Below are positions 36,002-51,155 of a stretch of 64,000 bases of DNA, one piece after another. Source of the DNA: Phycisphaerales bacterium Planc_01. Lineage in GTDB: Bacteria > Planctomycetota > Phycisphaerae > Sedimentisphaerales > Anaerobacaceae. The notes under the pieces are model-generated. The model made no database searches. It had not been told where the DNA came from and worked only from the letters and a program-made list of their open reading frames with translations. Both the position numbers and the translations under genes were made by a program. The first letter of the stretch is position 1. Each line of letters opens with the position of its first letter. The DNA lies in NCBI GenBank assembly GCA_001603075.1, contig LVBB01000024.1, forward strand, positions 62,001 through 126,000, read 5' to 3'.

Positions 36002-39000
36002 CTACGGCGTACCACGAGGGGCCAGGGAAGCCTGCTCGGTGCCGCCGTAGGCGCCCATGTTGATCCGCGTGTTGCCGGCCGCCCGCTCGGCAAGCGGATC
36101 GCCCACCTCACACAGCGGCTCGTCGCCCAGCGGCCAGCTCGGGTCTCCGGCGTCGATGCAAGGGCTGGTCTGATCGTCCCACGACCAGAGGCCCTGCCAC
36201 ACATCCCAGGACCAGCCCTGGCTCTTGAGGTGGTAGTCGCCGGGGCCCCAGAGCCCGTCGTCGAGCCACTGACCGCGTGCGACGAACAAGGGATCGGCGT
36301 CGAGATTGCCCTCGCCCGGCCAGCCGCCCTGGATGTTGCAGTAGCTGACCGTCGCCCCCTGCCGGGCCTCCAGATTTGCGCCGTTGCCGTTGAAGTAGAC
36401 GATCGAGTTCGCCAGAACCGGGGTCACGCAGGAGACACCATACCCAAGGTTATCGGCAATCGTGCAATTCTCGATGACCGGGTAGCCGCTGTAGACACCG
36501 CCGGTGCGATTGCCGGCGATGACGCAGTTCACGAACGTGCCGTAATTGCGCTGGATCCGCCGGCCGGAGACATCGGCCCACATCTCGACGCCGACGTGAT
36601 TGGCCAGGATGTTACAGCGGCTGACGAGCGGCTCGCCACCACCCCAGACCTTGATGCCCGCGGAGGTGTTGCCGAGCACGTCGCAGTAACGGATCGTCGG
36701 CTTCGACCCGTTGCAGAACAGTCCGTAGCTGCCACCGGCGACGGTGAATCCTGTGAACACACTCTCGGCAGTCTCGCCGTCGGCGAACGTCACAACCGGA
36801 CCAGGACCGGCCAGGACGGTCGCCGCCCGAACGGCTGGATCCTCCGGAGCAACCGACGTCACCGTCACGCTCTTGCCGGCAAAGCGAAGCTTCTCATTGT
36901 ACAGCCCCGGCTCGATGACGATCACGTCGCCGTCGTCGGCTGCGGCGATCGCATGTTGGATGTAGTCGTGGCGGCCGCCCGATGTGGCGTTCTCGATCGG
37001 CCCGTCCTGCAGGGCGTAGCCGAAGTCCAGACGCACCCCTTCGATCTGATAGTTGCGAGCCCACGAAAGGGTCGAACCACTGACATCCGGGCCACCGCCC
37101 CACGGATAGCTCGGGAGGTTGAATTGCACGATGCCGTACTCCCGCGTCATGCTACAGGTCCGGACGTTGCCGCTCCAATTGTCCCCCTCCAGGTACACGA
37201 TCGTCGAGCCGTCGATCTCCGCCTGCAACTGCCAGCCTCCACCGACCGCGACCTCGAATTCGCGCACGTTCCGGGGGTCCGAGATGTCGGCGCCGTAGAT
37301 GTCGCCGATGTCGTTGCGCTCGTCGGTCCAGACGACCAGGTTCCCGGAAACCGAGGGATCGTACTGCCGCTCGGGCGCCGTGCAGATCGGGAAGATCTTG
37401 ATGTCGCTCAGATCGGAGATGTCGGCGCCGTAGATGTCGCCGTCGGCCTCCCATACGACGATATCGCCGCAGATATCGACGAATCCCTCATGCGCTTCGG
37501 TGTAGTTGTCGTAAGGGTACGGCATGCCTCGGCCGACCTCTTCGGCGATGGTGAAGTACACCGGGTTGGCGCGGTCCGTGACGTCGGCGCCGCAGATGTC
37601 GTATACCGCCTCGGCGTAGCGCGTCTGATTCGACGTCTCCACGTCGCGATGCCGCAGCCAGACGACCTTGCTGCCGGAGACCGCGGGATAGCCGTAGGAC
37701 TCGTTCTGCGTGCCCCGTCGGAGAGGCATGCTGTCGCCCGTGGCCATGTCCGCGAGATACACGCTCGTGCAGATGGGATTGTAGTAGGACCCGGTGCCGC
37801 TGATCCAGACGACGAGGCTGCCGTCGATCTTCGGCTTGGTGTTCACTGTCCCGGCCTTGAACGTGCGGAAGATGCCCGTCTGCGTATCCGCACAGATAAT
37901 CTCCCATTGGGAGGGATTGTAGTCCTGGCTGCCCACATAGGCCACATGGGTTGCCGATACGGAGGGATAGAAGAAGTATCCGCCCGAATCCTGTGCGAGT
38001 GTGAACGGCTCGGCATTTATGGTGAAGGGCGCCGCCTCAATCTTGACGACATCCGGCTCACTATCGACGAAGCCGTCGTTGACGACCAGCTCGAAGCGGT
38101 AGACGCCGGCCTCCTGACACAGAAAGTAGGGCGTGGACGAATCCACCAGAAACAGTTCGACCGGTGGGCCTTCGAGTTGGGTCCAGGCATAGGTCAGCTT
38201 GTCCGGCGGGTCCGCATCCTGCGACCGGGAGCCGTCGAGGCGAATCCCGCCCGGCGTTGCCCACAGCTTGTCCGGACCGGCGTTCGCCACCGGACGCTCG
38301 TTGCCCACCACGACCAGCACCGTATCAGGGGCGCTGGTGTACTGACCGTCGGCGACGACCAGTGAGAATGTATACCATCCTTCGGCCGGCGGCGTGAAGG
38401 CCGGTTGGGCCGCCGAAGCGTCGTCGAGCATCACGTCAGCGCCCTCCGTCTGCGTCCACGTGAACGATGTGGGCCCTTGCGAATCAGAGAAGTAGCTGCC
38501 CGTCCCGTCCAGCACCACCGGTTCGGGGGCCAGGATGTGGCGATCGGCGCCGGCGTGGGCGAGCGGCTTGACGTAACCGACGTACTCATCGGCCCCGATA
38601 TCGACCCGCATCGCGTACACGCGCGGGTCGCCGTCGATGTCCGTCTCGTCCGGACGCGGAACGAAATCCGGGTCCCCGGCGCTGATGCACGGAGAGCCGG
38701 GGTCGAGACGATATCGCGCGCTCCAGGAACTGACAAAGACCGGGTCGGCGGAGATGTTGCCATGGCGCCCGGTCCACTCGGCCTGGCCTCCGTAGACCCT
38801 CTCGGATGTGCGCGGGTCCTGCATGACGTAATCGGCCGGGGTGTTACCCCAGACGTTGTTGTAGCGAATCACGTCGCCGCCCGCATTGGTCCAGTACAAC
38901 CCGCCGCCCGACTTGGCGCTGCAAATGATATTGTTCGCCACGGTCAGACGCGTGTAGTCATATCCGAACGACGCATAGACGTTACCGCCCATGCCGTATT

Positions 39001-39754
39001 CGGGCTCCTTGTCGCAGTCGTTGCCCACGATCGTGTTGTTCAGGAGCGAACCGGCATAGATGTAGATGCCGCCGCCATTGACGGCGGAGTTGTTGTAGAT
39101 GAGGTTGTCGGCGACCGCAACGTAGCCGCCGGCGTAGATGCCGCCACCGGTCTCGGCGCCATTGTTGTAGATCACGTTGTGCGTGATGGTCGCCGAGCCG
39201 GAGCAGTAGATCCCGCCCCCGTCGGACCACTCGTATCGGTACGTGTAGTAGCGAGCCCCTCCGACATTCACCTCCTCTTGTTCCTCCAGGTAGGGGGCGA
39301 CATTGTTGGTAATGACGTTTCGTGTGATGGTCGGCGAGGACCCCATGCACAGGATGCCACCCCCGTAGGAGTAACTGTAGGAATAGCTGGAACCGACGTA
39401 GGAGTACATCAACGTACCGACCCCGCCGGTGATGGTGAACCCCGTCAGGACCGCCCGGGACGTCTCGCCCTTCTGGAAGGTCACGACGCTGCCCTTCCCC
39501 TGGGCGTGCAGAATCGTATACCCGACGATCCGCGGATCGTTCGGGTCGGCGCTGGTGACGACGATGTTCTTGCCGTTGAAGTCAATCGTCTGGTAGTAAA
39601 GACCGGGCGCGACGATCACAGTGTCGCCGTCGTCGCTGGCGTCGATCGCGTCCTGGATGATGGGATAGTCGCCGGGAACGTGGCGGATCGCCGCACCTGC
39701 TGCACCGCTTACCAGGATCATCAACACGGAAGTCGCAATAGGCAGGTATCTCAT
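36002..39754 (-). CDS. Large secreted double beta-helix / PKD / beta-propeller protein
   Basis: 1250 residues from ATG 39754, giving a signal peptide (1-21); the frame is open further but unsupported. Two pectate-lyase-like beta-helices flank the protein: about 23-350 (IQDAIDASDDGDTVIVAPG) and 905-1250 (IQHAIAAADDGDVIVIEPG). Between them are PKD/REJ-like domains (about 395-620, AHAGADRHI, ANAGPDKLW) and a TolB-like propeller (about 640-880) with repeated VVW-type blades. A YSYSYSYGGG low-complexity stretch lies near 122. No C-terminal sorting signal is present. Such proteins are typical planctomycete surface or secreted proteins of unknown substrate. Confidence 0.88.
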   Translation of the reverse strand: MRYLPIATSVLMILVSGAAGAAIRHVPGDYPIIQDAIDASDDGDTVIVAPGLYYQTIDFNGKNIVVTSADPNDPRIVGYTILHAQGKGSVVTFQKGETSRAVLTGFTITGGVGTLMYSYVGSSYSYSYSYGGGILCMGSSPTITRNVITNNVAPYLEEQEEVNVGGARYYTYRYEWSDGGGIYCSGSATITHNVIYNNGAETGGGIYAGGYVAVADNLIYNNSAVNGGGIYIYAGSLLNNTIVGNDCDKEPEYGMGGNVYASFGYDYTRLTVANNIICSAKSGGGLYWTNAGGDVIRYNNVWGNTPADYVMQDPRTSERVYGGQAEWTGRHGNISADPVFVSSWSARYRLDPGSPCISAGDPDFVPRPDETDIDGDPRVYAMRVDIGADEYVGYVKPLAHAGADRHILAPEPVVLDGTGSYFSDSQGPTSFTWTQTEGADVMLDDASAAQPAFTPPAEGWYTFSLVVADGQYTSAPDTVLVVVGNERPVANAGPDKLWATPGGIRLDGSRSQDADPPDKLTYAWTQLEGPPVELFLVDSSTPYFLCQEAGVYRFELVVNDGFVDSEPDVVKIEAAPFTINAEPFTLAQDSGGYFFYPSVSATHVAYVGSQDYNPSQWEIICADTQTGIFRTFKAGTVNTKPKIDGSLVVWISGTGSYYNPICTSVYLADMATGDSMPLRRGTQNESYGYPAVSGSKVVWLRHRDVETSNQTRYAEAVYDICGADVTDRANPVYFTIAEEVGRGMPYPYDNYTEAHEGFVDICGDIVVWEADGDIYGADISDLSDIKIFPICTAPERQYDPSVSGNLVVWTDERNDIGDIYGADISDPRNVREFEVAVGGGWQLQAEIDGSTIVYLEGDNWSGNVRTCSMTREYGIVQFNLPSYPWGGGPDVSGSTLSWARNYQIEGVRLDFGYALQDGPIENATSGGRHDYIQHAIAAADDGDVIVIEPGLYNEKLRFAGKSVTVTSVAPEDPAVRAATVLAGPGPVVTFADGETAESVFTGFTVAGGSYGLFCNGSKPTIRYCDVLGNTSAGIKVWGGGEPLVSRCNILANHVGVEMWADVSGRRIQRNYGTFVNCVIAGNRTGGVYSGYPVIENCTIADNLGYGVSCVTPVLANSIVYFNGNGANLEARQGATVSYCNIQGGWPGEGNLDADPLFVARGQWLDDGLWGPGDYHLKSQGWSWDVWQGLWSWDDQTSPCIDAGDPSWPLGDEPLCEVGDPLAERAAGNTRINMGAYGGTEQASLAPRGTP

Positions 39755-39842
39755 GATCTGACCTTTCCCTCGCTCAACACATCGCACGGCTCTGAAAGGG
39801 CTGACAGTAGGCAGGCTGTCACCTCCACACATTCTTGCCACC

Positions 39843-39871
39843 ATCTTACACCAAATCCACTCCCGCGGCAA
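39843..39871 (-). promoter_or_regulatory. Possible promoter of the double beta-helix gene
   Basis: On the minus strand TTGCCG (39871-39866), a 17-bp spacer and TAAGAT (39848-39843), four of six matches each. The leader would be about 80 nt. Confidence 0.35.
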
Positions 39872-40075
39872 GCCCATGTGCCCAAACAGCCTCTCGACGA
39901 ACACCCCGTCACGGGATGAAACCGTCCTTTGGACAGACCGTAAACTCCTCTCGGACCGCCGCCCGGGACCCTTCCCCCTCATCCTTGACGCCGCCAGGCC
40001 CTGTTTGTTACATCTTTTTCGCCTTTTCTGTCCCAGTCTGATGCAGTGGAAGGGCCCGGCCCCGTCGGATTCCAG

Positions 40076-40103
40076 TTGAAAACGAGCCTGACCTGGGCAT
40101 AAT
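40076..40103 (+). promoter_or_regulatory. Predicted promoter of the oxidoreductase/sugar cluster
   Basis: TTGAAA at 40076-40081, a 16-bp spacer and CATAAT at 40098-40103, five of six matches each. The ATG at 40147 is 43 nt further on. Confidence 0.5.
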
Positions 40104-40146
40104 GGCTTGCCAACTACGCCAACCGCATTGATTTGGGGATACGACG

Positions 40147-43100
40147 ATGACATGGCACCTGCAACGGACCGCACTTTCGCTGCTTCTGGGCCTTCTGCTG
40201 CTGTCGGCAAGCTGCTCTCAACCGGCCTCGCATTCGGGCGGCAATCGCAGTGAGACATCCGCTTTCGATGACCGCCTCGGTGCCGTCATGGAATCGGACA
40301 GAGGCATCCCCGTGGCCTATGACGTCGATGTCCTCGTGGTCGGCGGCAGCTCGGGCGGCGTTGCGGCTGCCGCAGCGGCCGCCCGGACCGGGGCCCGTGT
40401 CTTCCTGGCCGCCCCCAGACCTTACCTCGGAGAAGACCTCTGCGCAACATACCGCCTCTGGCTGGAGCCTGGCGAGGAGCCTCGCTCGGACCTGGCCCGG
40501 GCCCTTTTCGCCGAGCCGCGTGCGGCCCGGCAGATGGAGAATGCTCTCGCCTTCACCTATGAAGCGGACATCCCCTCGTCGCCTCGTCACAGAGACACCG
40601 ACCCGCCGTCGATTCTGACCGACGGCAAGTGGCACAGCGCCGCAACGCAGAGCGTTCAATACGACGGCAACGCCACCATCACCGCCGATCTGGGTGACGC
40701 CCAGCGTCTGCGGCGGGTGCGCATCATGGCCTACCAGCGCAACGGCGACTTCGAGGTCGATGCCGTCACGATTCACGTCAGCCAGGATCGGACGACCTGG
40801 AGCCGCGTGGCCACCATCAAGAACGGCAGGCTTGGCCAAGGCTCGTTCGAAGAGTCGCCCATCGAGCTGTCCGCCTGGCTGGACAGTACCGCCCGTTACG
40901 TCCGGCTCAGCATCAGGAAGTCCCCGGCGGTCGACCGAATCCTGCTGGGAGAGATCGTGATCGAGAAGCCCGCCGGATCGAAGCGGTCCTCACCTGACCG
41001 GGTCCCGCCGACTCCCATGCAGGTCAAACGCGTCCTCGACGACACCCTGCTTGACGCGGGCGTCAAATTCCTCTATGGCTGCTATGCCACCGACGTGCTG
41101 CGAGATGAGAACGGCAACGTGGCGGGAATCTTGATGAGCAACCGCTCGGGTCGCCAGGCGGTGAAGGCCAGAGTCGTCATCGACGCGACGGACAGGGCCC
41201 TGGTCGCGCGGATGGCCGGCGCCGAATTCGATCTCTATGCAATGGGCTGGCACACCTTCCAGCGCACGGTAGTCGGCGGCGCGATGCGGCAGGACGAGTA
41301 CATGGAGGCCCGCCGACTGCCCACGCCGGTCCATACCGCTGACGGACGAACCTACGAGGCCGTCGAGTACACTCTGAAGATTCCAATGGAGGACGGCTCA
41401 TTCGCCTCTTTTGCCAACGCCGAGCAGATCGCGCGGGACAAGACCTGGAGCGCCGGACAGGTGGATTGCTCCGAGACGCTGTTTCAGGTGCCTCCCGACC
41501 GCATGAAGGGCAAGGCGCGCGAGTGCTGCACGTGGCCCGGCGCCGACAGAGCCGATCTGAACATGTTCCGGCCCGCGCGAGTCGAACGGCTCTTCGTGCT
41601 GGGAGGTTGCGCGGACATGGCCCGATCGGTCGCCGAGAAGCTCGTGCGTCCGCTCGAACTGATCGCCGTGGGCGAGCGGATCGGCCAACTGGCGGCCGTC
41701 GAGGCCCTTGCCCTGCCACCGAGCCAGACGGCCACCGTAGCCGGCCAGGCAATGGCGCCGTCGGCTCGCGGAGATGTCCGGGAGGACACCGCCTGGATGC
41801 GGCCCGACTTGCAGCATGGCGGCACGGTGGAGGCTGCCGAGCGTGCGATCCCGATCCTGGGCCGTTATGACGTGGTCGTCGTCGGGGGCGGCACCGGCGG
41901 TGCTCCGGCAGGGATTTCCGCCGCACGCCAGGGGGCTCGAACGCTGGTTGTCGAGTACCTCCACGGCCTGGGCGGCATCGGGACGATGGGCCTGATCGGC
42001 CGATATTACTACGGCTACCGCGATGGCTTCACCAAAGAGATCGATGAGGGACTGGCCGACCTGGGCGGCCCGGCCGAGGGAATCAGCGGACGGGGAGGCG
42101 ACTGGGACAGCCAACTGAAGATCGAATGGTATCGCCGCGAGCTGCGAAAGGCCGGCGCCGACATCTGGTACGGCGCGTTCGGCTGCGGCGCATTGCTCGA
42201 GGGCCACCAGGTCAAGGGCGTGGTGGTCGCCACGCCGCAGGGCCGGGGCGTGGTCATGGCGAAGGTGGTGATCGACGCGACCGGCAGCGCCAGCATCGCC
42301 GCTGCGGCCGGCGCCGACTGCATCTACACCACCGCCGAGCACATCGCAATCCAGGGAACGGGCCTGCCCCCCTGGGAGCCGGGCGCCCGATACACCAATA
42401 CCGACTATACGTTCATCGACGACCTCGACGCGATCGACGCATGGCGGTCGTTCCTCACCGCCCGCAAGAAGTTCGACAACGCCTATGACCTCGCACAGAT
42501 CGTCGACAGCCGCGAACGAAGACAGATCGTCGGCGACTTCTTTCTCTGCCCGTCGGACGCCTACCTTGGCCGGACCTTCCCCGACACGATCGTCCGCGCC
42601 AACAGCAACTTCGACTCGCACGGCTTCACGATCCACCCGATGTTCCTGCTCAAACCACCGAACCACGACGCGGTGCCCTGCTATGTCCCCTACCGCTGCC
42701 TGCTGCCCAAGGGCCTCGAAGGCATCCTCGTGACTGGACTGGGCGTCAGCGCCCATCGCGATGTGATGCCCGTGATCCGTATGCAGCCGGACATCCAGAA
42801 CCAAGGGTATGCCGCCGGCGTCGCCGCCGTCATGGCGATCCAGGGGAACGGCAAGCTGCGAGACATCGACATCCGGGCGCTCCAGCAGCATCTCGTCGAC
42901 AAGGGCATTCTGTCTGCCGACGTCCTCGGCCACGAGGACTCGCTGCCGCTGCCCGGGGAACAGATCGAGCGAGCCGTCGCGAGCCTGACGAACAACTTTG
43001 ACAGTGTTGAGATCGTCTACGCCCAGCCCGAGGCGGCCCTTCCGCTGCTGCGGCAGGCGTACGACAATGCGACCTCCGACCAGAACAAACTCACCTACGC

Positions 43101-43659
43101 CCACATCCTCGGCATCATGGGCGACGGCGACGGCGCCGCGACGCTGGCCCAGGCCGTCAGACAGCGGGCCTGGGACGAGGGCTGGAGATACACCGGCATG
43201 GGCCAGTATGGGATGAGCATGAGTCCGGTGGACAGCCTGATCGTGGCCCTCGGCCGGACGGGACGCAGGGAGGCGCTCGATCCCATCATCGAGAAGATCG
43301 CCCAGCTCGGCCCCGACCATGCGCTGTCGCATCACCGCGCCGTGGCAATGGCGATGGAGGCCCAGCGCGACTCGTCGGGCGCCAAGGCACTGGCGGATCT
43401 GCTCCGCAGAGACGGCATGACCGGACACGCCTTCACGGACATCCGTACCGTCGCGGCGAACATCCCGGCCAGTCCCGTCGATACCTCCACCCGCGAGGTT
43501 TCGTTGCGGGAACTGATCCTGGCCCGCGCGCTCTACCGCTGCGGCGACGACGACGGCCTTGGCGAGCGCATCCTGAGGCAGTATGCTCGTGACATGCGCG
43601 GCCACTACGCCCGTCACGCAATGGCCATTCTCAACGAGAAGCCCGGGCGCCGCATGTGA
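40147..43659 (+). CDS. Lipoprotein with two FAD-dependent oxidoreductase domains and a nested F5/8C-like domain
   Basis: 1170 residues. A hydrophobic N-terminus ends LLLLSASC (Cys23), a probable lipobox. The first Rossmann motif is VVGGSSGGVAAA (64-75). About residues 156-272 form a discoidin (F5/8C)-like jelly-roll inserted in this first domain. A second full FAD domain starts near 574 (YDVVVVGGGTGGAPAG) with GLGGIGTMGLIG. The last 220 residues are helical and HEAT-like. FAD_oxidored (PF12831-type) proteins often oxidise sugars or related substrates; the two-domain fusion is uncommon. It heads the sugar cluster, with 69 bp to the xylose-isomerase-like gene. Substrate is not evident. Confidence 0.82.
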   Translation: MTWHLQRTALSLLLGLLLLSASCSQPASHSGGNRSETSAFDDRLGAVMESDRGIPVAYDVDVLVVGGSSGGVAAAAAAARTGARVFLAAPRPYLGEDLCATYRLWLEPGEEPRSDLARALFAEPRAARQMENALAFTYEADIPSSPRHRDTDPPSILTDGKWHSAATQSVQYDGNATITADLGDAQRLRRVRIMAYQRNGDFEVDAVTIHVSQDRTTWSRVATIKNGRLGQGSFEESPIELSAWLDSTARYVRLSIRKSPAVDRILLGEIVIEKPAGSKRSSPDRVPPTPMQVKRVLDDTLLDAGVKFLYGCYATDVLRDENGNVAGILMSNRSGRQAVKARVVIDATDRALVARMAGAEFDLYAMGWHTFQRTVVGGAMRQDEYMEARRLPTPVHTADGRTYEAVEYTLKIPMEDGSFASFANAEQIARDKTWSAGQVDCSETLFQVPPDRMKGKARECCTWPGADRADLNMFRPARVERLFVLGGCADMARSVAEKLVRPLELIAVGERIGQLAAVEALALPPSQTATVAGQAMAPSARGDVREDTAWMRPDLQHGGTVEAAERAIPILGRYDVVVVGGGTGGAPAGISAARQGARTLVVEYLHGLGGIGTMGLIGRYYYGYRDGFTKEIDEGLADLGGPAEGISGRGGDWDSQLKIEWYRRELRKAGADIWYGAFGCGALLEGHQVKGVVVATPQGRGVVMAKVVIDATGSASIAAAAGADCIYTTAEHIAIQGTGLPPWEPGARYTNTDYTFIDDLDAIDAWRSFLTARKKFDNAYDLAQIVDSRERRQIVGDFFLCPSDAYLGRTFPDTIVRANSNFDSHGFTIHPMFLLKPPNHDAVPCYVPYRCLLPKGLEGILVTGLGVSAHRDVMPVIRMQPDIQNQGYAAGVAAVMAIQGNGKLRDIDIRALQQHLVDKGILSADVLGHEDSLPLPGEQIERAVASLTNNFDSVEIVYAQPEAALPLLRQAYDNATSDQNKLTYAHILGIMGDGDGAATLAQAVRQRAWDEGWRYTGMGQYGMSMSPVDSLIVALGRTGRREALDPIIEKIAQLGPDHALSHHRAVAMAMEAQRDSSGAKALADLLRRDGMTGHAFTDIRTVAANIPASPVDTSTREVSLRELILARALYRCGDDDGLGERILRQYARDMRGHYARHAMAILNEKPGRRM

Positions 43660-43728
43660 GACGCCCATCGCATCGAAGATACAGACGGAAGAAACAGACA
43701 ACCGCTGGAACCGTAAAGGAGGCAAGAG

Positions 43729-44763
43729 ATGGCAGGAGAATATCGGTTTTCATTCGGGCCGTGGAACATCCATGAAGGCGGCGATCCGTTCGGCCCGACG
43801 GTTCGAAGCACCGTCAAGTTCGCCAAGAAGCTCAAACTCTTCAAGAAGCTCGGCTTCGAAGGCGTGCAGTTCCACGACGACGACGCCGTGCCTGAGATGA
43901 ACGAGCTCAGCCCCAACGAGATCGTCAAGAAGGCCAAGGACGTGCGGAAGATGCTCGCCGACGAGGGCCTGGTGGCCGAATTCGTCGCGCCGCGTCTGTG
44001 GGAAGACCCGCGCACGATCGACGGCGGCTACACCTCCAACGACCCCGAGTGCCGCAAGTATGCACGGGACCGCAGCCGCCGGGCCATCGACATCGCCGCG
44101 GCCCTGAAGACCGATCTGATCGTCCTCTGGCTGGCGCGGGAAGGCACGTACATGCGTGAGGCCAAGGACAGCAAGATCGCCGTGGACCGCCTCGTCAAGG
44201 CGATCGACGACATGCTCGCCTACAACAAGGACATCAAGATCGCCATCGAGCCCAAACCCAACGAGCCGATGGACCATGCCTATATCCCGACAACGGGACA
44301 CGCCATGGCGCTGGGCTACCTGACCAGAGACGCCGGCCGCGTCGGCGTGAACATCGAAACCGCGCACGCGATCCTGGCCGGCCTCGATCCGTCGGACGAA
44401 ATGGGCTTTGCCCTGGCCTATGACAAGCTCTACACGGTACACCTGAACGACCAGAACGGCCTGAAGTTCGACGAGGACAAGAGCTTCGGCTCGGTCAACC
44501 TGCGCCGGGCCTTCAACCAGGTTCGCATCCTCGACAAGTACGACTACGGCAAGAAAGGCGAGTTCGTCGGCCTCGATGTCAAGGCCGTGCGGACGCAGAA
44601 GCAGAAGGTCGCGACGAAACACCTCAGCAACAGCCGGACGATCTTCCTGCGGCTGGTCGAGCTGGCCCGAAGCCTCGATGAAGGCCGGGTCGAGAGCCTG
44701 ATCGCCGAGCGCGACTACGAAGAGCTGGACCTGCTCATTATGAACCACCTGCTCGGCAAGTGA
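43729..44763 (+). CDS. Xylose isomerase-like TIM-barrel protein
   Basis: 344 residues with AAAGGAGG just before the ATG. Class I xylose isomerase residues are kept: His49 and Asp52 in VQFHDDDAV, LWLAREG (133-139), EPKPNEP (174-180) with metal Glu174 and Lys176, NIETAH with Glu210, and HLNDQ (238-242). So it is likely a metal-dependent aldose-ketose isomerase. It is about 40 residues shorter than typical class I enzymes, mainly at the C-terminus. Its neighbours are a deacetylase, a deaminase-like protein and a kinase, so the real substrate may not be xylose. Confidence 0.85.
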   Translation: MAGEYRFSFGPWNIHEGGDPFGPTVRSTVKFAKKLKLFKKLGFEGVQFHDDDAVPEMNELSPNEIVKKAKDVRKMLADEGLVAEFVAPRLWEDPRTIDGGYTSNDPECRKYARDRSRRAIDIAAALKTDLIVLWLAREGTYMREAKDSKIAVDRLVKAIDDMLAYNKDIKIAIEPKPNEPMDHAYIPTTGHAMALGYLTRDAGRVGVNIETAHAILAGLDPSDEMGFALAYDKLYTVHLNDQNGLKFDEDKSFGSVNLRRAFNQVRILDKYDYGKKGEFVGLDVKAVRTQKQKVATKHLSNSRTIFLRLVELARSLDEGRVESLIAERDYEELDLLIMNHLLGK

Positions 44764-44791
44764 GCCGGCCGAACCCTGAACGAGAGGAACC

Positions 44792-45553
44792 ATGAGTGAC
44801 CACAAAGTTGTCTTGAGTCTCGGCGCCCATCCGGACGACGCCGAGTTCATGTGCGCCGGGACCCTGGCTTTGCTCCGCGAGCGGGGCTGGCAGGTCCACA
44901 TCGCAACGTTCACACCGGGCGATTGCGGTACGATCGAGTACAGCCGTGAAGAGATCAGCCGGATTCGCAAGAGCGAGGCGGCCAAGGCGATCAGCCTCCT
45001 CGACGGCGAGTATCACTGCCTGGAGTGCGACGACGCCTTCATCATGTACGATCGGCCGACCCTGGTCAAAGCAATCGCTCTGATACGCAAGGTCCGGCCG
45101 AAAATCGTCTTCACGCTGAGCCCATCGGACTACATGGTCGATCACGAGATGTCCAGCAAGCTGACGCAGTCCGCGTGCTTCTGCTGCGGCATCGTCAACA
45201 TCGACACGCCCGGCGCCGAGCCGTTCGAGCCGATCCCCCATCTCTACTATGCCGATCCGGTCGAAGGCAAGGACAAGTTCGGCACCGAGATCCCGCCGGG
45301 CACCATCGTGGACACCACCGGCGTCATGGACATCAAGACGAAGATGCTCGTCTGCCACGAGAGCCAGCGCAACTGGCTGCTGGCCCATCACGGCATCGAC
45401 GAGTACACCGAGCAGATGAAGAAGCTCGGCCACAAGCGCGGCGCCGACATCGGCGTCGAGTTCGCCGAGGGGTTCCGCCAGCACCTGGGGCACGCCTACC
45501 CGCAGGACAACCTCCTCAAGGCCGAACTGGGCGATCTGGTTCACACGAAATAG
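44792..45553 (+). CDS. PIG-L family N-deacetylase
   Basis: A cytoplasmic 253-residue zinc enzyme of the GlcNAc-PI deacetylase/LmbE fold. The metal motif AHPDDAE lies at 12-18, with a third ligand likely in [17 protein letters not shown]-type ribosome site upstream (GAGAGGA). It is 28 bp after the isomerase gene and 10 bp before the NagB-like gene. The family removes N-acetyl from amino sugars or conjugates; here I infer deacetylation of an N-acetylated amino sugar before deamination by the next gene product. Confidence 0.88.
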
Positions 45554-45563
45554 GGGAACGATC

Positions 45564-46493
45564 ATGGGCAGAAAACAAAGCCTCCTGGCCCCGGACTGGT
45601 GGGACTACACGACGCTCGACGACGCGATCCTCAACGACGCGGCCCGGCTCACCGCCAAAGACATGGCGGGCCTGAGCCGGGAAGGATTTCGGGTCGTCTT
45701 CTACGAGACACTCGAGGATTTCTACCTGGCCGAGGCCCTCGAATACGTCACCGCCTGGAAGCAGGCGACGGCTGACAATCCGGTCGGCGTTTGTGGGCCG
45801 ATCGGGCCGACCGAGCAGTTGCCGCTTGTGGCAAGACTGGTCAACGAGCTTGGGCTGAAACTCCGCGATGCCCACTTCTGGGGCATGGATGAGTGGTATA
45901 TGAACGGCGCCGAGGTGCCGCAGACGCACCCGCTGTCGTTTGCCAAGGCGGACAAGGAACTCTGCTTCAACCGGATCCGGCCCGAACTGAAGATGCCTGA
46001 GACCAACCTGCACTTCCCTAAGGCCGACACCTCGGCCTATATTCGAAGTTGGGACGGCGTGCGCTGCGCCGTCATGCAGGGCGGCCAGGGCGATATCAAG
46101 CACTGGGCGTTCAACGATCCCGTTCGCAGGCAAGGCCCGTACAAGGACCGCCCGCCGACGCCGCAGGAGTACCGGCAACTGACGACGCGCATCGTGGACC
46201 TGCATCCGGTCACCGTGATGCAGAACGCACGAACCAGCGGCGGCGGGGTCGTCACCAGCGTGCCGACCCAGGCGATCACCGTCGGTCCCGTCGAGACGTG
46301 GAAGGCGGAGAAGGTCTCGATCTGGCAGGCGGGCACGCACGACAATCCGTTCGGGATGCGGCTGACTACGCTGATGATCGCCAGGAAACTCCCCGACAGC
46401 GCCGTGCCCATGTCGTTGCTGGCCGACCACGCGAACGTGCAATTCAACTTCTACCGGCCCGCCATCGGTACGTGCGAGGCGGAAATGCACTGA
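45564..46493 (+). CDS. Glucosamine-6-phosphate deaminase-like protein (NagB family)
   Basis: 309 residues, longer than NagB (about 266). The active-site strand FWGMDEWYM corresponds to NagB's NMDEY, and THPLSF to its HPx[16 protein letters not shown] corresponds to NagB's GGIGxDGHIAFNEP and keeps the His. VPTQAITVG matches the VPxxAxTVG motif of the family. So an aldose-ketose amino sugar deaminase/isomerase fold is well supported, but the altered loops suggest a substrate other than GlcN-6-P. It follows the PIG-L deacetylase by 10 bp. Confidence 0.82.
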
Positions 46494-46521
46494 GGCCAGA
46501 CGGCAGAAGGAGACACCATCA

Positions 46522-47727
46522 ATGGCGGTAGATGTGCTGATTCTCAACACGGCGGTCGCGGACCTGCGCCGGGCCGATTTCGAATTCGCCGACCGGCTCG
46601 TGGGCAAAGGTGGCCTGGCCAAGTGCCAGACCGAGGACATGCCCGGCTACTCCCAGGAGCAGATCAAGCAGTGGATCGACGAAGGCAGCGCCACCGCGGG
46701 CGGACCGGGCAACACCGCTCCGCTGATCGCTCGGACCGGCCTGAAGGTCGCCGTCGGCGTCAACCTCGGCAAAGGCCACTACGACGGGCTCGACGCCCAA
46801 GGCCGATTCTTCCACGACACCCTCGTCGCCAACGGCGTCGATATGTCGGCGACCTACACTCATCCCACGCTGCCGACCGGAACGACGTTCATCCACAATC
46901 CTAAGGGCGACGACCGGGGCGGCATCGCCTATTTCCCCAACGCCAACAACGACTTCGACTTTGCGATCTTCCAGAAGGCCGTTGAACGGCTCGAACCCCG
47001 CGTGGTCTATTACATGTACTCGGGGCTGTCGGACCGGGGCGACGCCAACGAAGGCCGTGACCTGGCCGAGTTCATCCGCTGGTGTCGAGGCCGGGGCGCG
47101 CTGACCATCGCCGACAGCCATACGCTGACGGGCGACCCGCATCGCCTGATTGCCGAGGGCAAACCCGTCGCCGAATATCGCCTGCTCGAACCGCTTTTGC
47201 CGGAGCTGGACGTGTTCTTCACCTCCTCGGATGAGGCGAAGCTGATCGAGAACACACTGGGCGAGCCGCGCGGATGGACCCAGTTTGACGAGAGCCACAA
47301 TAGCACGCATTTCCTCGGGTTCCTCACGAAGAGATACTGGCACAATGAGGGGCGAACGCGGCTCTTCGGCGTCACCGTCAGCAACGGCGCCTATGAAGTG
47401 CACCGCCGCCCCGACGGCCGAACCGCCGGACCGACCAAGATCACGTCGCGATTCCTCAGCGGCGAGGTCATCGATCTCGTCGGCGCCGGCGATTCCTTCC
47501 GAGCCGGGCTGATCGCCTATCTTGCGAAGAACCTCGACGCGTTTCGTGCCGGCAACGCCGACTTCGCCCAGGCCGTTCAGGCAGGAAATCTGTTCGCGTC
47601 GCTGTTCATCAAGGCCCCGCTCGACGACCGCTACGCCAACATCAAGCCGTACGATACGATGCTGCATGTCCTGCAAACCGACATGAATTTCGACAGCTTC
47701 GAAGCCCTGCAACAGGCGCTAACATAG
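46522..47727 (+). CDS. PfkB-family carbohydrate kinase
   Basis: A 401-residue ribokinase-fold sugar kinase. The first signature covers AGGPGNTAPLIARTG, and the second is DLVGAGDSFRAGL with the catalytic Asp in GAGD. An insertion around 240-290 makes it longer than fructokinases. It lies 28 bp after the NagB-like gene and should act in the same pathway. The phosphorylated sugar is unknown. If the NagB-like enzyme needs a phosphorylated substrate, this kinase may act before it. Confidence 0.85.
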   Translation: MAVDVLILNTAVADLRRADFEFADRLVGKGGLAKCQTEDMPGYSQEQIKQWIDEGSATAGGPGNTAPLIARTGLKVAVGVNLGKGHYDGLDAQGRFFHDTLVANGVDMSATYTHPTLPTGTTFIHNPKGDDRGGIAYFPNANNDFDFAIFQKAVERLEPRVVYYMYSGLSDRGDANEGRDLAEFIRWCRGRGALTIADSHTLTGDPHRLIAEGKPVAEYRLLEPLLPELDVFFTSSDEAKLIENTLGEPRGWTQFDESHNSTHFLGFLTKRYWHNEGRTRLFGVTVSNGAYEVHRRPDGRTAGPTKITSRFLSGEVIDLVGAGDSFRAGLIAYLAKNLDAFRAGNADFAQAVQAGNLFASLFIKAPLDDRYANIKPYDTMLHVLQTDMNFDSFEALQQALT

Positions 47728-47798
47728 GGCGTACTCATGGCCACGAAGGGGGCGACGAATCGTCTTTCGTATCACTTGGGGCGAAGGCGAAGCTGTGA

Positions 47799-47832
47799 AC
47801 TTGCGACAGACTTGCGACAGAACTTGCGACAC
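47799..47832 (+). repeat. Three phased direct repeats upstream of the DUF4432 gene
   Basis: The sequence ACTTGCGACA occurs at 47799, 47810 and 47822, that is, at 11 and 12 bp steps close to one helical turn. It ends 72 bp before the next start codon, so it may be a regulator-binding site. The gap at 47728-47903 holds no other clear element. Confidence 0.5.
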
Positions 47833-47903
47833 GCTCGTGACGGAGAACCGCCTCGTGCGTCTCATGGCGACATAGGCGATGAATTGATTGGGAGTGAATT
47901 GAG

Positions 47904-48980
47904 ATGGCAAAGACGAAGACGTCGTTCGACTGGCAGGACAGGGTGGGAAATCCCGCGCAGGTCGGTGGGATAGAGACCAGTGTTCTGGACAACGGGCTGG
48001 GCAAGGGCACGCGAATCGCGTGGGTCAACACGGGGGCCGGACTGCGATACAAGGTGGTCATCGACCGGGCGCTGGATATCGTGGACGCGTTCCACAACGA
48101 GCACAGCCTGGCCTGGCTCAGCCATGCCGGAGTCACCGCCCCGCGCCCGGACGCCAACGAAGGCATCGAATGGCTCTGGCCGTTCGGCGGCGGCCTTCTG
48201 ACGACCTGTGGCCTCAGTCACGTCGGTGGGCCGGAGGACGATGAATCGGGCCGGCGCGGTCTGCACGGGCGGATCAGCAACACCCCGGCCGAGATCGAAT
48301 CCATCGTCCAGCCTGACCTGCGAACCGGCAAGCTCGACATGAGCATCACCGCCGTCGTGAAGGAGTACCGCGTGTTCGGCCCGACCCTGCAACTGCGGCG
48401 GACCATCTCCAGCACGCTGGGCCAGCCCGCGATCCGCATCCACGACGTGGTGACAAACATGGGCAACACGCCGACGCCGCACATGCTGCTGTACCACTGC
48501 AACTATGGCTGGCCCTTGGTCGACGAGGGCACGCAGATCGTCTGGAAAGGCGCGTGGCGGTCGCGCGGCATGGACATGGACAACGCGATCTTCAACGACA
48601 AGAACGACTTCCACACATGCCGCAAGCCGCTGGAAGCCCATCGCGGCGGCGGCGAGGCATGCGGGTTCATCGACGTCGCCGCCGATAAGAGCGGGCACTG
48701 CACGATCGGCCTGTACAACCAGAAGCTCGGCCTGGCGGTGGCGACGCGCTATAAGAAGACGCAGTTCCCCTGCATGGCCAACTGGCAGCACTGGGGCCCG
48801 GGCGAATACGTCACCGGCTTGGAGCCGGGCACCAATTTCCCAATCGGTCAGAGTGCGGCCCGCAAGCAGAAGAAGCTGATCCATCTGGCCCCCGGCAGGA
48901 GCCGGACCTACGATCTGGAGATCCGCGTGCTCACGAAGGATGCCGACATCAACGCCTTCCTCAAGACAGCCGGGCAGTGA
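47904..48980 (+). CDS. DUF4432 family (aldose 1-epimerase-like) protein
   Basis: A 358-residue beta-sandwich protein related to galactose mutarotases. Features include IDRALDIVDAF, WLWPFGGGLLTTCGL, GLHGRISNTPAEI and NWQHWGPGEYVTGLEPGTN, all of which are DUF4432 hallmarks to my memory. Conserved His in GLHGRI and Glu in GLEPGTN fit an epimerase-type site. It probably interconverts sugar anomers for the cluster. A 1-bp gap separates it from the next gene. Confidence 0.85.
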   Translation: MAKTKTSFDWQDRVGNPAQVGGIETSVLDNGLGKGTRIAWVNTGAGLRYKVVIDRALDIVDAFHNEHSLAWLSHAGVTAPRPDANEGIEWLWPFGGGLLTTCGLSHVGGPEDDESGRRGLHGRISNTPAEIESIVQPDLRTGKLDMSITAVVKEYRVFGPTLQLRRTISSTLGQPAIRIHDVVTNMGNTPTPHMLLYHCNYGWPLVDEGTQIVWKGAWRSRGMDMDNAIFNDKNDFHTCRKPLEAHRGGGEACGFIDVAADKSGHCTIGLYNQKLGLAVATRYKKTQFPCMANWQHWGPGEYVTGLEPGTNFPIGQSAARKQKKLIHLAPGRSRTYDLEIRVLTKDADINAFLKTAGQ

Positions 48981-48981
48981 G

Positions 48982-50259
48982 ATGACTGAGCACGTTCTCG
49001 TAGGTTTCGGATTCGGGCCGATCCAGAGCGGCCTGTTCGCCAAGGAGGCCTTTCAGAGCGGGCGTTTCGCGCGGATCGTCGTCGCCGAGATCGACCGAGC
49101 CCTGGTCCACGCCGTTCGGGCCAACCGTGGAACGTACCACGTCAACATCGCGCGGGCCGACCGGATCGAAACGCAGCGGATTGACAGCGTCGAACTGTTC
49201 GACCCAACAGATACGAAAGACAACGAAGCCCTTCGCAGCGCGCTGGCTCAGGCAACAGAGATCTGCACCTGCCTGCCGTCGGTGAATTTCTTCACCTCGG
49301 GTGGCACCAACAGTGTCGCCGCGATGATCGAGGACGGCCTGGCCCATAGAGGAGAAGAACCCGCCATCGTCTATGCGGCCGAGAACAACAACCACGCCGC
49401 CGAGATCCTGCGGGACGCCGTCGCGGAGCGTCTGAGCGGCCCGTTGCCGCGATGGGTGCAATTCCTCAACACGGTGATCGGCAAAATGAGCCGTGTCGTG
49501 ACCGATCCGGCCGAGATCGCGGCGCTGAACCTGACGCCCATTGCACCGGGGATCGACCGGGCGTTTCTCGTGGAGGAGTTCAACCACATTCTCGTCAGCC
49601 GGACCACGGTTGCGGGTTTCCATCCCGGCATCGACGTGTTCATCGAGAAAGACGATCTGCTGCCCTTCGAAGAGGCCAAGCTCTACGGCCACAACGCCAT
49701 CCATGCCCTGCTGGGCTTCCTGGGTGCACTGAAGGGCTGCGGCGCGATGACGGACCTGGCTCGCGATGAGGCCATCATGCAGACGGCTCGTCAGGCCTTC
49801 ATCGAAGAATCCGGCGGCGCCCTGATCGTCAGGTATGCGTCGCTCGGCGACGAGCTGTTCACCGAGTCCGGCTATCAGCGATATGCCGACGATCTGCTCG
49901 GGCGCATCACCAATCCGTTTCTGGCCGACACCACGAGCCGCGCCGCCCGCGATATCCTTCGCAAACTCGGCGCCACCGACCGCATCTTCGGGACCATGTC
50001 TCTGGCGTTCGAATATCAGATTCGACCGGAGAACATGGCCACGGGCGCACTGGCGGGCGTCGCCATGCTTCTGGACAATGCAGCTCAGTACGGCGTCCCC
50101 AATGAGTTCCACGGACTGGGTTGGCAAAGGCTCGACCGAGGCGGACTCGACCGCCTGCTGCGATGGATCTGGAAGGACGAGGAACCGCCCTTCGGCCGCG
50201 AGATGATCGACTGTACATGGCAGGCCAAAGACCGGCTTGTCGGACTGCTCGGGCCATGA
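48982..50259 (+). CDS. Mannitol dehydrogenase-family NAD-dependent oxidoreductase
   Basis: 425 residues from ATG 48982; the open frame upstream lies within the DUF4432 gene. The N-terminal Rossmann domain is VLVGFGFGPIQSGLF (5-19) with a Gly-rich loop, as in polyol dehydrogenases (MtlD/UxuB type). The C-terminal helical domain has EAKLYGHNAIHALLGFLG, equivalent to the K-x5-H-x3 catalytic region of that family. NHAAEIL near the middle matches the family's Asn/Glu motif. It likely oxidises or reduces a polyol or sugar acid in this cluster. The transporter gene overlaps its stop by 4 bp. Confidence 0.78.
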   Translation: MTEHVLVGFGFGPIQSGLFAKEAFQSGRFARIVVAEIDRALVHAVRANRGTYHVNIARADRIETQRIDSVELFDPTDTKDNEALRSALAQATEICTCLPSVNFFTSGGTNSVAAMIEDGLAHRGEEPAIVYAAENNNHAAEILRDAVAERLSGPLPRWVQFLNTVIGKMSRVVTDPAEIAALNLTPIAPGIDRAFLVEEFNHILVSRTTVAGFHPGIDVFIEKDDLLPFEEAKLYGHNAIHALLGFLGALKGCGAMTDLARDEAIMQTARQAFIEESGGALIVRYASLGDELFTESGYQRYADDLLGRITNPFLADTTSRAARDILRKLGATDRIFGTMSLAFEYQIRPENMATGALAGVAMLLDNAAQYGVPNEFHGLGWQRLDRGGLDRLLRWIWKDEEPPFGREMIDCTWQAKDRLVGLLGP

Positions 50260-51155
50260 GCAACGAGAGACGATCCCCCGCTGCCGCCTATCTGTATGCG
50301 ATGGTGGCGGTGCTGTTCTGGGCGACATCGGCGTCGGCGTTCAAACTCTCTCTGCGTCACATGGGCGTTCTGCCGCTGCTGTTCGTCGCCTCGACCACAT
50401 CGACCGTTGCCTTCGGCGTCTATCTGCTCGCGACAAGAAGACTCGACCTGCTTCGGGCGTTCACCGGGAAGGACTATCTGGGGTCGGCGGGACTGGGATT
50501 CCTGAATCCGTTCTTGTATTACGTCGTGCTGTTCAAGGCCTATTCCCTGCTGCCCGCCCAGGAGGCCCAGCCGATCAACTTCGTCTGGCCGCTGACGCTG
50601 GTGCTGCTGTCGATCCCCCTGCTCGGCCAGCGCATCCGCCTGTCGAGCATCCTGGCCATCCTCATCAGCTTCATCGGCGTCGTGGTCATCGCCACGCGCG
50701 CCACCGGACCGGCCGACATCCTCCGCTTTCGTTTCAGCAGCGGCACCGGCGTCCTGCTGGCCCTGAGCACGACCATTGTCTGGGCCCTGTTCTGGATCTA
50801 CAACGCCAAAGACCGCTGCGACGCGGCGGTGCGGCTCTTCGTGAACTTCGCCTTCGCCACAGGGTACATCCTCATCGCCCTGCTGCTCGCCGGCCGGAGC
50901 GAGATCCCTCCGTGGCAGGGCCTGGCCGGAGGCGTCTACGTCGGCCTCTTCGAGATGGGGATCACCTTCCTCGCCTGGCTCAAGGCCCTCAAGACCGCCC
51001 CAACCACCGCGCACGTCGTCAATCTGATCTATCTGGTCCCCTTCCTCTCGCTGCTGGTCATCGCCCTGGTGTTGGGCGAGAGCATCCTCCCATCTACAGT
51101 CATCGGCCTGGTCCTCATCATCACCGGCATTATCGCGCAGAAGCGCTGGGCGTGA
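50256..51155 (+). CDS. EamA-family (DMT superfamily) transporter
   Basis: A 299-residue membrane protein with about ten hydrophobic segments in two five-helix EamA repeats. The first repeat includes LFWATSASAFKLSL and PLLGQRIRLSSILAILISF. The second includes LGESILPSTVIGLVLIITGI. Start in an ATGA overlap with the dehydrogenase gene. EamA carriers export or import small metabolites such as amino acids and sugars or their derivatives. Here it probably moves the cluster's substrate or product. Confidence 0.86.
   Translation: MSNERRSPAAAYLYAMVAVLFWATSASAFKLSLRHMGVLPLLFVASTTSTVAFGVYLLATRRLDLLRAFTGKDYLGSAGLGFLNPFLYYVVLFKAYSLLPAQEAQPINFVWPLTLVLLSIPLLGQRIRLSSILAILISFIGVVVIATRATGPADILRFRFSSGTGVLLALSTTIVWALFWIYNAKDRCDAAVRLFVNFAFATGYILIALLLAGRSEIPPWQGLAGGVYVGLFEMGITFLAWLKALKTAPTTAHVVNLIYLVPFLSLLVIALVLGESILPSTVIGLVLIITGIIAQKRWA

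Follow-up and report, generated by a model that had tools for sequence, protein, structure and literature searches.

A stretch of 64,000 nucleotides from Phycisphaerales bacterium Planc_01 (contig LVBB01000024.1, positions 62,001–126,000), referred to below as the window, carries at positions 40147–51155 a run of eight genes: FADox, XI, PIG-L, NagBL (NagB-like), PfkB, DUF4432, MtlD-like and EamA (genes 1–8, from 5′ to 3′). The first seven constitute a real, conserved combination, whose recurrence in relatives and co-occurrence across genomes exceed chance. The cluster brings together modules that also occur separately, namely PIG-L/NagBL, PfkB/DUF4432/MtlD-like and FADox/XI. All of its families are known except NagBL, a divergent subfamily of the NagB superfamily. 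We propose, with a probability of about 0.4, that the seven genes encode one catabolic route that would converge on a free ketose via PIG-L and NagBL; this mechanism is plausible but unproven. A description of the cluster was not found in the open-licence papers searched, nor was anything on DUF4432 there that was judged related to it.

Conservation of the gene run

All eight open reading frames (ORFs) lie on the plus strand and are separated by 69, 28, 10, 28, 176, 1 and −4 nt, in agreement with the first-pass annotation, which had described eight co-directional genes with small gaps or overlaps. The last junction is an ATGA overlap, with the EamA start codon at 50256 and the end of MtlD-like at 50259. 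Pfam assigns a family to seven of the eight ORFs and so bears out the family names they had been given; the exception is NagBL, for which there is no match at E 0.01.

Relatives were fetched with NagBL as query. At least 577 stretches of named records matched, and the 80 best were kept, so identities and neighbourhoods taken from this set describe the closest relatives; other genomes added further stretches. The six genes other than PIG-L and EamA were also surveyed across the window's order (148 genomes), at E cut-offs of 1e-60 (XI, PfkB and FADox), 1e-40 (DUF4432) and 0.001 (NagBL and MtlD-like). Some of these genomes (G) and loci (L) are apparently the same organisms (for example G022 and L030, with identical coordinates), and the two sets are not summed. 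Weak paralogs below about 50% identity (for example FADox-like proteins at 42–49% in G027 and G032), short fragments (MtlD-like of 148 and 52 residues in G013 and G432, and a 24-residue NagBL in G358) and additional partial matches within a genome were removed. This left MtlD-like in 63 of 68 matched genomes, NagBL in 53 of 58, DUF4432 in 57 of 58 and FADox in 43 of 48; the XI (44) and PfkB (57) genomes were all retained.

The six surveyed genes form a single run, with steps under 8 kb, in 16 of the 148 genomes, and the run is seemingly broken by contig ends in some others (for example G007, G399 and G402). Around NagBL, the order FADox-XI-PIG-L-NagBL-PfkB-DUF4432-MtlD-like recurs within the window's order. 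Within the window's family (f1), genomes holding both genes have them linked (under 8 kb) in 34/36 cases for PfkB-DUF4432, 34/37 for PfkB-MtlD-like, 32/34 for DUF4432-MtlD-like, 25/28 for FADox-XI and 29/36 for NagBL-PfkB. Linkage is mostly lacking outside f1, the exceptions being PfkB-MtlD-like (8/13), DUF4432-MtlD-like (4/14), PfkB-DUF4432 (3/10), NagBL-MtlD-like (1/14) and XI-MtlD-like (1/11). The EamA/DMT transporter gene (50256–51155, from its ATG; Pfam EamA) had been counted as a cluster member at first pass. Of the 80 named NagBL loci, 5 have it, as does G410 (L177), at varying distance, and it is a variable neighbour outside the conserved seven-gene set.

Co-occurrence was assessed by permuting gene presence within family and genome-size classes (2000 permutations), which controls kinship only to family level. 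All 15 gene pairs co-occur above expectation in the 148 genomes (0/2000 permutations each, z 4.4–7.1), and 40 of the 43 FADox genomes also hold NagBL. Among the 72 genomes outside f1, where the genes are mostly unlinked, MtlD-like is present in 14 of 15 with NagBL vs 10 of 57 without it. Canonical NagB above its cut-off, found in 71 of the 148 genomes, served as the control and gave z values of 1.3 with PfkB, 1.4 with MtlD-like and 1.7 with XI. The unstratified odds ratio is 7.4 for NagB against NagBL, and 31–94 for NagBL against the five other cluster genes. The six-gene runs show that linkage is conserved in relatives, the lack of which would have counted against the cluster under the first-pass annotation. 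The possible undescribed sugar or amino-sugar catabolic cluster, as it was then called, is supported in part: a catabolic-looking set that includes an oxidoreductase, a deacetylase and a protein resembling a deaminase is conserved, and no description of it was found in the open-licence papers searched; EamA drops out of it.

The modules are also found apart. In genus g13, one genome (G381) has a FADox-XI-PfkB-DUF4432-MtlD-like run without PIG-L/NagBL, and another (G408) has FADox-XI on one contig and PfkB-DUF4432-MtlD-like on a second; NagBL is present in both, on another contig. The copy at L053, whose coordinates are those of the G408 NagBL, groups with a Poribacteria copy (support 99/86). 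XI-PfkB-MtlD-like occurs in G329, which has no NagBL match. In a Kiritimatiellae locus (L182:4739-14254), an alpha-L-fucosidase, an AraC regulator, XI (77%), PfkB (60%), an alcohol dehydrogenase (ADH) and MtlD-like (52%) stand in a row; NagBL is not near this sugar module, and the NagBL of that genome lies on a contig of different length.

NagBL and the other encoded proteins

NagBL (45564–46493) owes its assignment to profile and fold comparison. It scores 18.4 bits against TIGR00502 (NagB), whose curated cut-off is 236.9. The AlphaFold model (pLDDT 89, pTM 0.88) retrieves glucosamine-6-phosphate (GlcN6P) deaminases as the top-ranked structures in Foldseek. With VIA-align, the model gives Z scores of 20.6–26.1 against GlcN6P deaminases and 17.5–20.2 against 6-phosphogluconolactonases; the values are 26.1 for 2bkv (rmsd 2.2 over 231 residues) and 25.4 for 1dea. 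NagBL is thus predicted to have the NagB-superfamily fold, and a 6-phosphogluconolactonase-like protein remains a minor doubt. The window's genome holds a single copy. An alignment of 44 rows from many phyla has a mean column identity of 81%, the rows being 73–96% identical to the window protein; in other planctomycetes identity falls as low as 61%, and beyond these come weaker relatives near 30%.

In E. coli NagB, Asp72 acts in enolisation, His143 in ring opening and Lys208 together with Arg172 in phosphate binding; the positions of Asp141 and Glu148 were compared as well. Profile alignment places NagBL Asp109 and His180, both invariant in the 44 rows, on Asp72 and His143, and Asp185 on Glu148, whereas Asp260 or Asn261 occupies the position of the presumed phosphate lysine, Lys208. 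The simplest reading of these alignments is that NagBL may have retained the isomerase/deaminase core and not phosphate recognition. Because the NagB cut-off is missed and this lysine is lost, NagBL is unlikely to be an ordinary NagB. NagB above the cut-off is also present in 41 of the 53 NagBL genomes, including the window's own, which argues that NagBL is not a replacement for NagB and has another role. An ordinary GlcN6P deaminase was rejected on these grounds, although a protein of this kind, with no Pfam match, could easily pass for one.

The PIG-L family de-N-acetylase (44792–45553; PF02585, 87.1 bits against a gathering score of 28.2) keeps its HPDD motif in 87 rows. Its nearest named model is TIGR04001 (BshB1; 114.4 bits, cut-off 182.5 not reached), and its nearest solved structures are LmbE-like proteins, BshB1 and diacetylchitobiose deacetylase. 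Bacillithiol-type thiol synthesis was considered and rejected, since the BshB1 cut-off is missed and neither BshA nor BshC is among the matches listed for the eight proteins. The diacetylchitobiose deacetylases 8bgn and 3wl4, presumably of archaeal origin, match the window PIG-L at low similarity (E 1e-11 and 3e-10). Like the role proposed here for PIG-L, that enzyme acts on an unphosphorylated amino sugar; to our knowledge it has no NagB-like partner.

The pair extends far beyond the cluster. Judged by their labels, the records with NagBL among the best 80 stretches, which are 73–96% identical to the window protein, and in the tree span eleven phyla: Planctomycetota, Verrucomicrobiota, Kiritimatiellota, Lentisphaerota, Bacteroidota, Balneolota, Chloroflexota, Armatimonadota, Poribacteria, Cloacimonadota and Omnitrophota. 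The labels may err, as the records are mostly metagenome-assembled genomes. Of the 54 loci outside the seven-gene cluster, 44 have a PIG-L gene no more than 1.5 kb from NagBL. The 80-row tree, poorly supported at many deep forks, needs two label changes to account for the 26 NagBL copies linked to the cluster and is still compatible with a single origin. PRK02122, which we take to consist of NagB-PIG-L two-domain proteins, joins the same two activities and thus offers a fused parallel to the pair. The window differs in that the genes are separate and NagBL scores 16.8 bits against NF002557 (cut-off 384). NagB matches inside frames of ∼650–700 codons, perhaps NagB-PIG-L fusions, were seen at G019:C5:9955-10680, G416:C14 and G332:C37.

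The remaining proteins of the cluster fall into known families. FADox (40147–43659; PF12831, 249 bits) is a doubled FAD-dependent oxidoreductase with an F5/8 type C insert: Pfam finds FAD_oxidored in four stretches, along with an F5_F8_type_C match. This upholds the double FAD oxidoreductase of the first-pass annotation; the lipoprotein signal, which was also part of that description, is a by-eye reading of an N-terminus that resembles one. XI (43729–44763; Pfam AP_endonuc_2, a xylose-isomerase-like barrel) is a xylose-isomerase-like aldose/ketose isomerase that scores 208.7 bits against TIGR02631 (xylose isomerase; cut-off 447 not reached), its nearest matches being xylose isomerases presumably of the Streptomyces type. 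His238 stands at the position of Asp245, which we take to be a metal ligand, and is kept in 34/34 aligned orthologs; the substrate may therefore differ. The PfkB-family sugar kinase (46522–47727; PF00294) has a GAGD motif kept in 36 rows. The DUF4432 protein (47904–48980; PF14486, 321 bits) matches 3ty1 ('hypothetical aldose 1-epimerase', E 3.1e-25) and is a probable mutarotase. MtlD-like (48982, at its ATG, to 50259; Mannitol_dh_C) resembles mannitol-1-phosphate 5-dehydrogenase. Its best score against the PRK02318 models is 104.5 bits (cut-off 368 not reached), its nearest structure is the mannitol-1-phosphate 5-dehydrogenase 3h2z (E 5.3e-22), and its EEAKLxGHNAxH stretch, kept in 38 rows, fits K-x4-N-x2-H, which we take to be the motif of that enzyme.

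A candidate route and its alternatives

The reactions that we infer, their order and their substrates can be arranged as follows. FADox, probably exported, would act upstream, outside the cytoplasm. PIG-L would deacetylate an N-acetyl amino sugar or an oxidised derivative of it, and NagBL would carry out a NagB-type aldose-ketose isomerisation of the unphosphorylated amino sugar, in which ammonia is lost and a ketose is formed. XI would convert a neutral aldose into the same or a related ketose, the DUF4432 protein would act as a mutarotase, MtlD-like would connect the ketose (or its phosphate) with a polyol (or polyol phosphate), and PfkB would phosphorylate the ketose for entry into glycolysis. 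If an aldose isomerase, an amino-aldose deaminase and a polyol dehydrogenase each led into a common ketose, their association with a single kinase and a mutarotase-like DUF4432 protein would make sense.

In canonical N-acetylglucosamine catabolism (nag), deacetylation by NagA is followed by the deaminating isomerisation by NagB. The window cluster likewise pairs a deacetylase with a protein of predicted NagB fold. It differs from nag in that PIG-L replaces NagA, and in that NagBL is far under the NagB cut-off and without the presumed phosphate lysine; no NagA-like gene stands beside NagBL among the eight window proteins, and NagA was not searched for elsewhere in the genome. Deacetylation and deamination ahead of phosphorylation are used by bacteria through other enzyme families (PMC9537276, PMC12017989). 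The ong oxidative chitin pathway of Pseudoalteromonas performs deacetylation and deamination without an earlier phosphorylation, then employs a sugar kinase; its enzymes include a putative D-aminoacylase, OngB, and a putative D-amino acid deaminase, OngC, which is compared with pyridoxal phosphate enzymes (PMC9537276). Unlike ong, the window has PIG-L and a NagB-fold protein, together with an isomerase, DUF4432 and a polyol dehydrogenase.

A wider proposal is held tentatively, with the odds somewhat against it: PIG-L and NagBL may form a transferable cross-phylum module for phosphate-independent amino-sugar catabolism, with NagBL as a new class of the NagB superfamily and with a ketose hub in planctomycetes. 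Deacetylation and deamination would then take place on the free (perhaps 3-oxidised) sugar, in reverse of the nag order; the NagBL active site would have been rebuilt (Lys179, Ile178 and Asp260); and the window's order would have joined the pair with an aldose isomerase, a mutarotase, a polyol dehydrogenase and a kinase. If true, phosphate-independent removal of nitrogen from amino sugars would be added to the known routes, and a function would be given to the recurring PIG-L neighbourhood and to a dispersed yet co-inherited planctomycete gene set.

Several observations weigh against a single route through PIG-L and NagBL. In NagBL, Ile178 stands at the presumed Asp141 position and Lys179 is new and invariant in the 44 rows, so the reaction may differ; the presumed phosphate-binding Arg172 is retained as Arg223. 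Of 40 NagBL genomes that either fall outside the order or have no placement in it, 8 have any MtlD-like match, 2 have a close one (49–53% identity) and 1 has PfkB, so the pair does not need such partners everywhere. Elsewhere, XI adjoins DegT aminotransferase and TIM-barrel genes, and MtlD-like adjoins an ADH nearest IolM, contexts that need no amino sugar. The FADox-PfkB pair, the weakest outside f1, is non-significant there (p 0.1). The control NagB also exceeds expectation with DUF4432 (z 2.9), NagBL (z 3.5) and FADox (z 3.6), so part of the signal of these three may be general, reflecting amino-sugar use or genome breadth. The permutations cover family and genome size and are no substitute for a tree-aware test, and the enzyme activities and any amino-sugar substrate are putative.

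One alternative, which we regard as rather unlikely, has oxidation come first: FADox, or Gfo/Idh/MocA enzymes in other phyla, might make a keto or acid amino sugar, whose deacetylation and deamination would fall to PIG-L and NagBL. The FADox gene does sit upstream of PIG-L in the cluster, and its genomes nearly always hold NagBL (40/43, as above). Of the 54 loci outside the seven-gene cluster, 19 have clustered groups of Gfo/Idh/MocA type no more than 6 kb from NagBL, and this is the commonest Pfam family among the neighbour ORFs chosen for analysis (31 of 108, selected from 264 candidates); however, such groups are missing from the other 35 loci, and these phyla are rich in Gfo/Idh/MocA genes in any case. 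The xylose-isomerase-like XI is better suited to unoxidised aldoses, and the FADox model is too poor (pLDDT 59) to settle fold or chemistry, so no fold is claimed for it. A precedent is the ong pathway, in which an oxidised amino sugar loses its acetyl and amino groups before any phosphorylation (PMC9537276). It is likewise improbable, to a similar degree, that one operon houses two unrelated capabilities, one for the use of a neutral sugar or a polyol (FADox, XI, PfkB, DUF4432 and MtlD-like) and the other a general PIG-L/NagBL pair. The G381 run, the XI-PfkB-MtlD-like set of G329, the Kiritimatiellae row with an ADH beside an alpha-L-fucosidase, and the wide occurrence of NagBL without these genes all suit such a division. 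Against it, NagBL co-occurs strongly with PfkB, DUF4432, MtlD-like, XI and FADox even when unlinked, and G381 and G408 retain NagBL elsewhere in the genome.

Least likely, and in our view quite improbable, is a cyclitol or uronate route resembling the Thermotoga inositol pathway (TM0411–TM0416), whose intermediates are named in PMC5931981. MtlD-like would be a uronate reductase and PfkB its kinase, and PIG-L/NagBL would free an amino-cyclitol or an inositol-linked amino sugar. As in that pathway, some relatives pair MtlD-like with a dehydrogenase of this type: the ADHs beside MtlD-like in L131 and L182 are best matched by the scyllo-inosose 3-dehydrogenase IolM (73 and 70 bits; cut-off 450). 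In L168, the TIM-barrel protein in the neighbourhood of XI matches IolO at 71 bits, yet hydroxypyruvate isomerase at 156. The window cluster has no such dehydrogenase. Among its eight proteins the IolC match is weak (32 bits), IolG, IolM and IolN are absent from the matches listed (for FADox, the best 25 of 43), and MtlD-like is nearest to mannitol-1-phosphate dehydrogenase and not to UxaB/UxuB. 

For the preferred single route to a ketose, a direct hint of the substrate class comes from another family of the order. There, an N-acylglucosamine 2-epimerase (PF07221, 175 bits; NF052547, 385 bits, cut-off 600), NagBL, PIG-L, MtlD-like and a NagA-like gene (176 bits, cut-off 226) stand together (L145:6871-12112), a set that points to an N-acetylhexosamine; this PIG-L is just 32% identical to that of the window.

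Further loci and flanking features

XI recurs with a DegT/StrS-type aminotransferase and a hydroxypyruvate-isomerase-like TIM barrel in L168, L169, L171 and L180 (also L149), often together with Gfo/Idh/MocA genes; a regulator of XRE-like type and a transporter of SSS-like type are sometimes present too (families by profile match in L168, by eye in the others). A zinc-type alcohol dehydrogenase adjoins MtlD-like in L131, L133, L140, L141, L142 and L147 (by eye). In L143 (9999-11309), MtlD-like adjoins a nickel-dependent putative hexonate epimerase (NF052594, 658 bits), with a uronate isomerase-like gene nearby (by eye).

A scan of both strands for sigma-70-type promoters gave 3 sites vs 1.7 expected, and the combined sigma-70 and terminator scan is near chance. 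A weak promoter-like site (10/12 match) at 40076–40103 on the plus strand ends 44 nt ahead of the FADox ATG. The window also encodes a large protein on the minus strand (36002–40258), divergent from the cluster, in which PKD-like and beta-helix-like repeats can be discerned by eye; ORFs resembling it are present in L021, L022 and L026.

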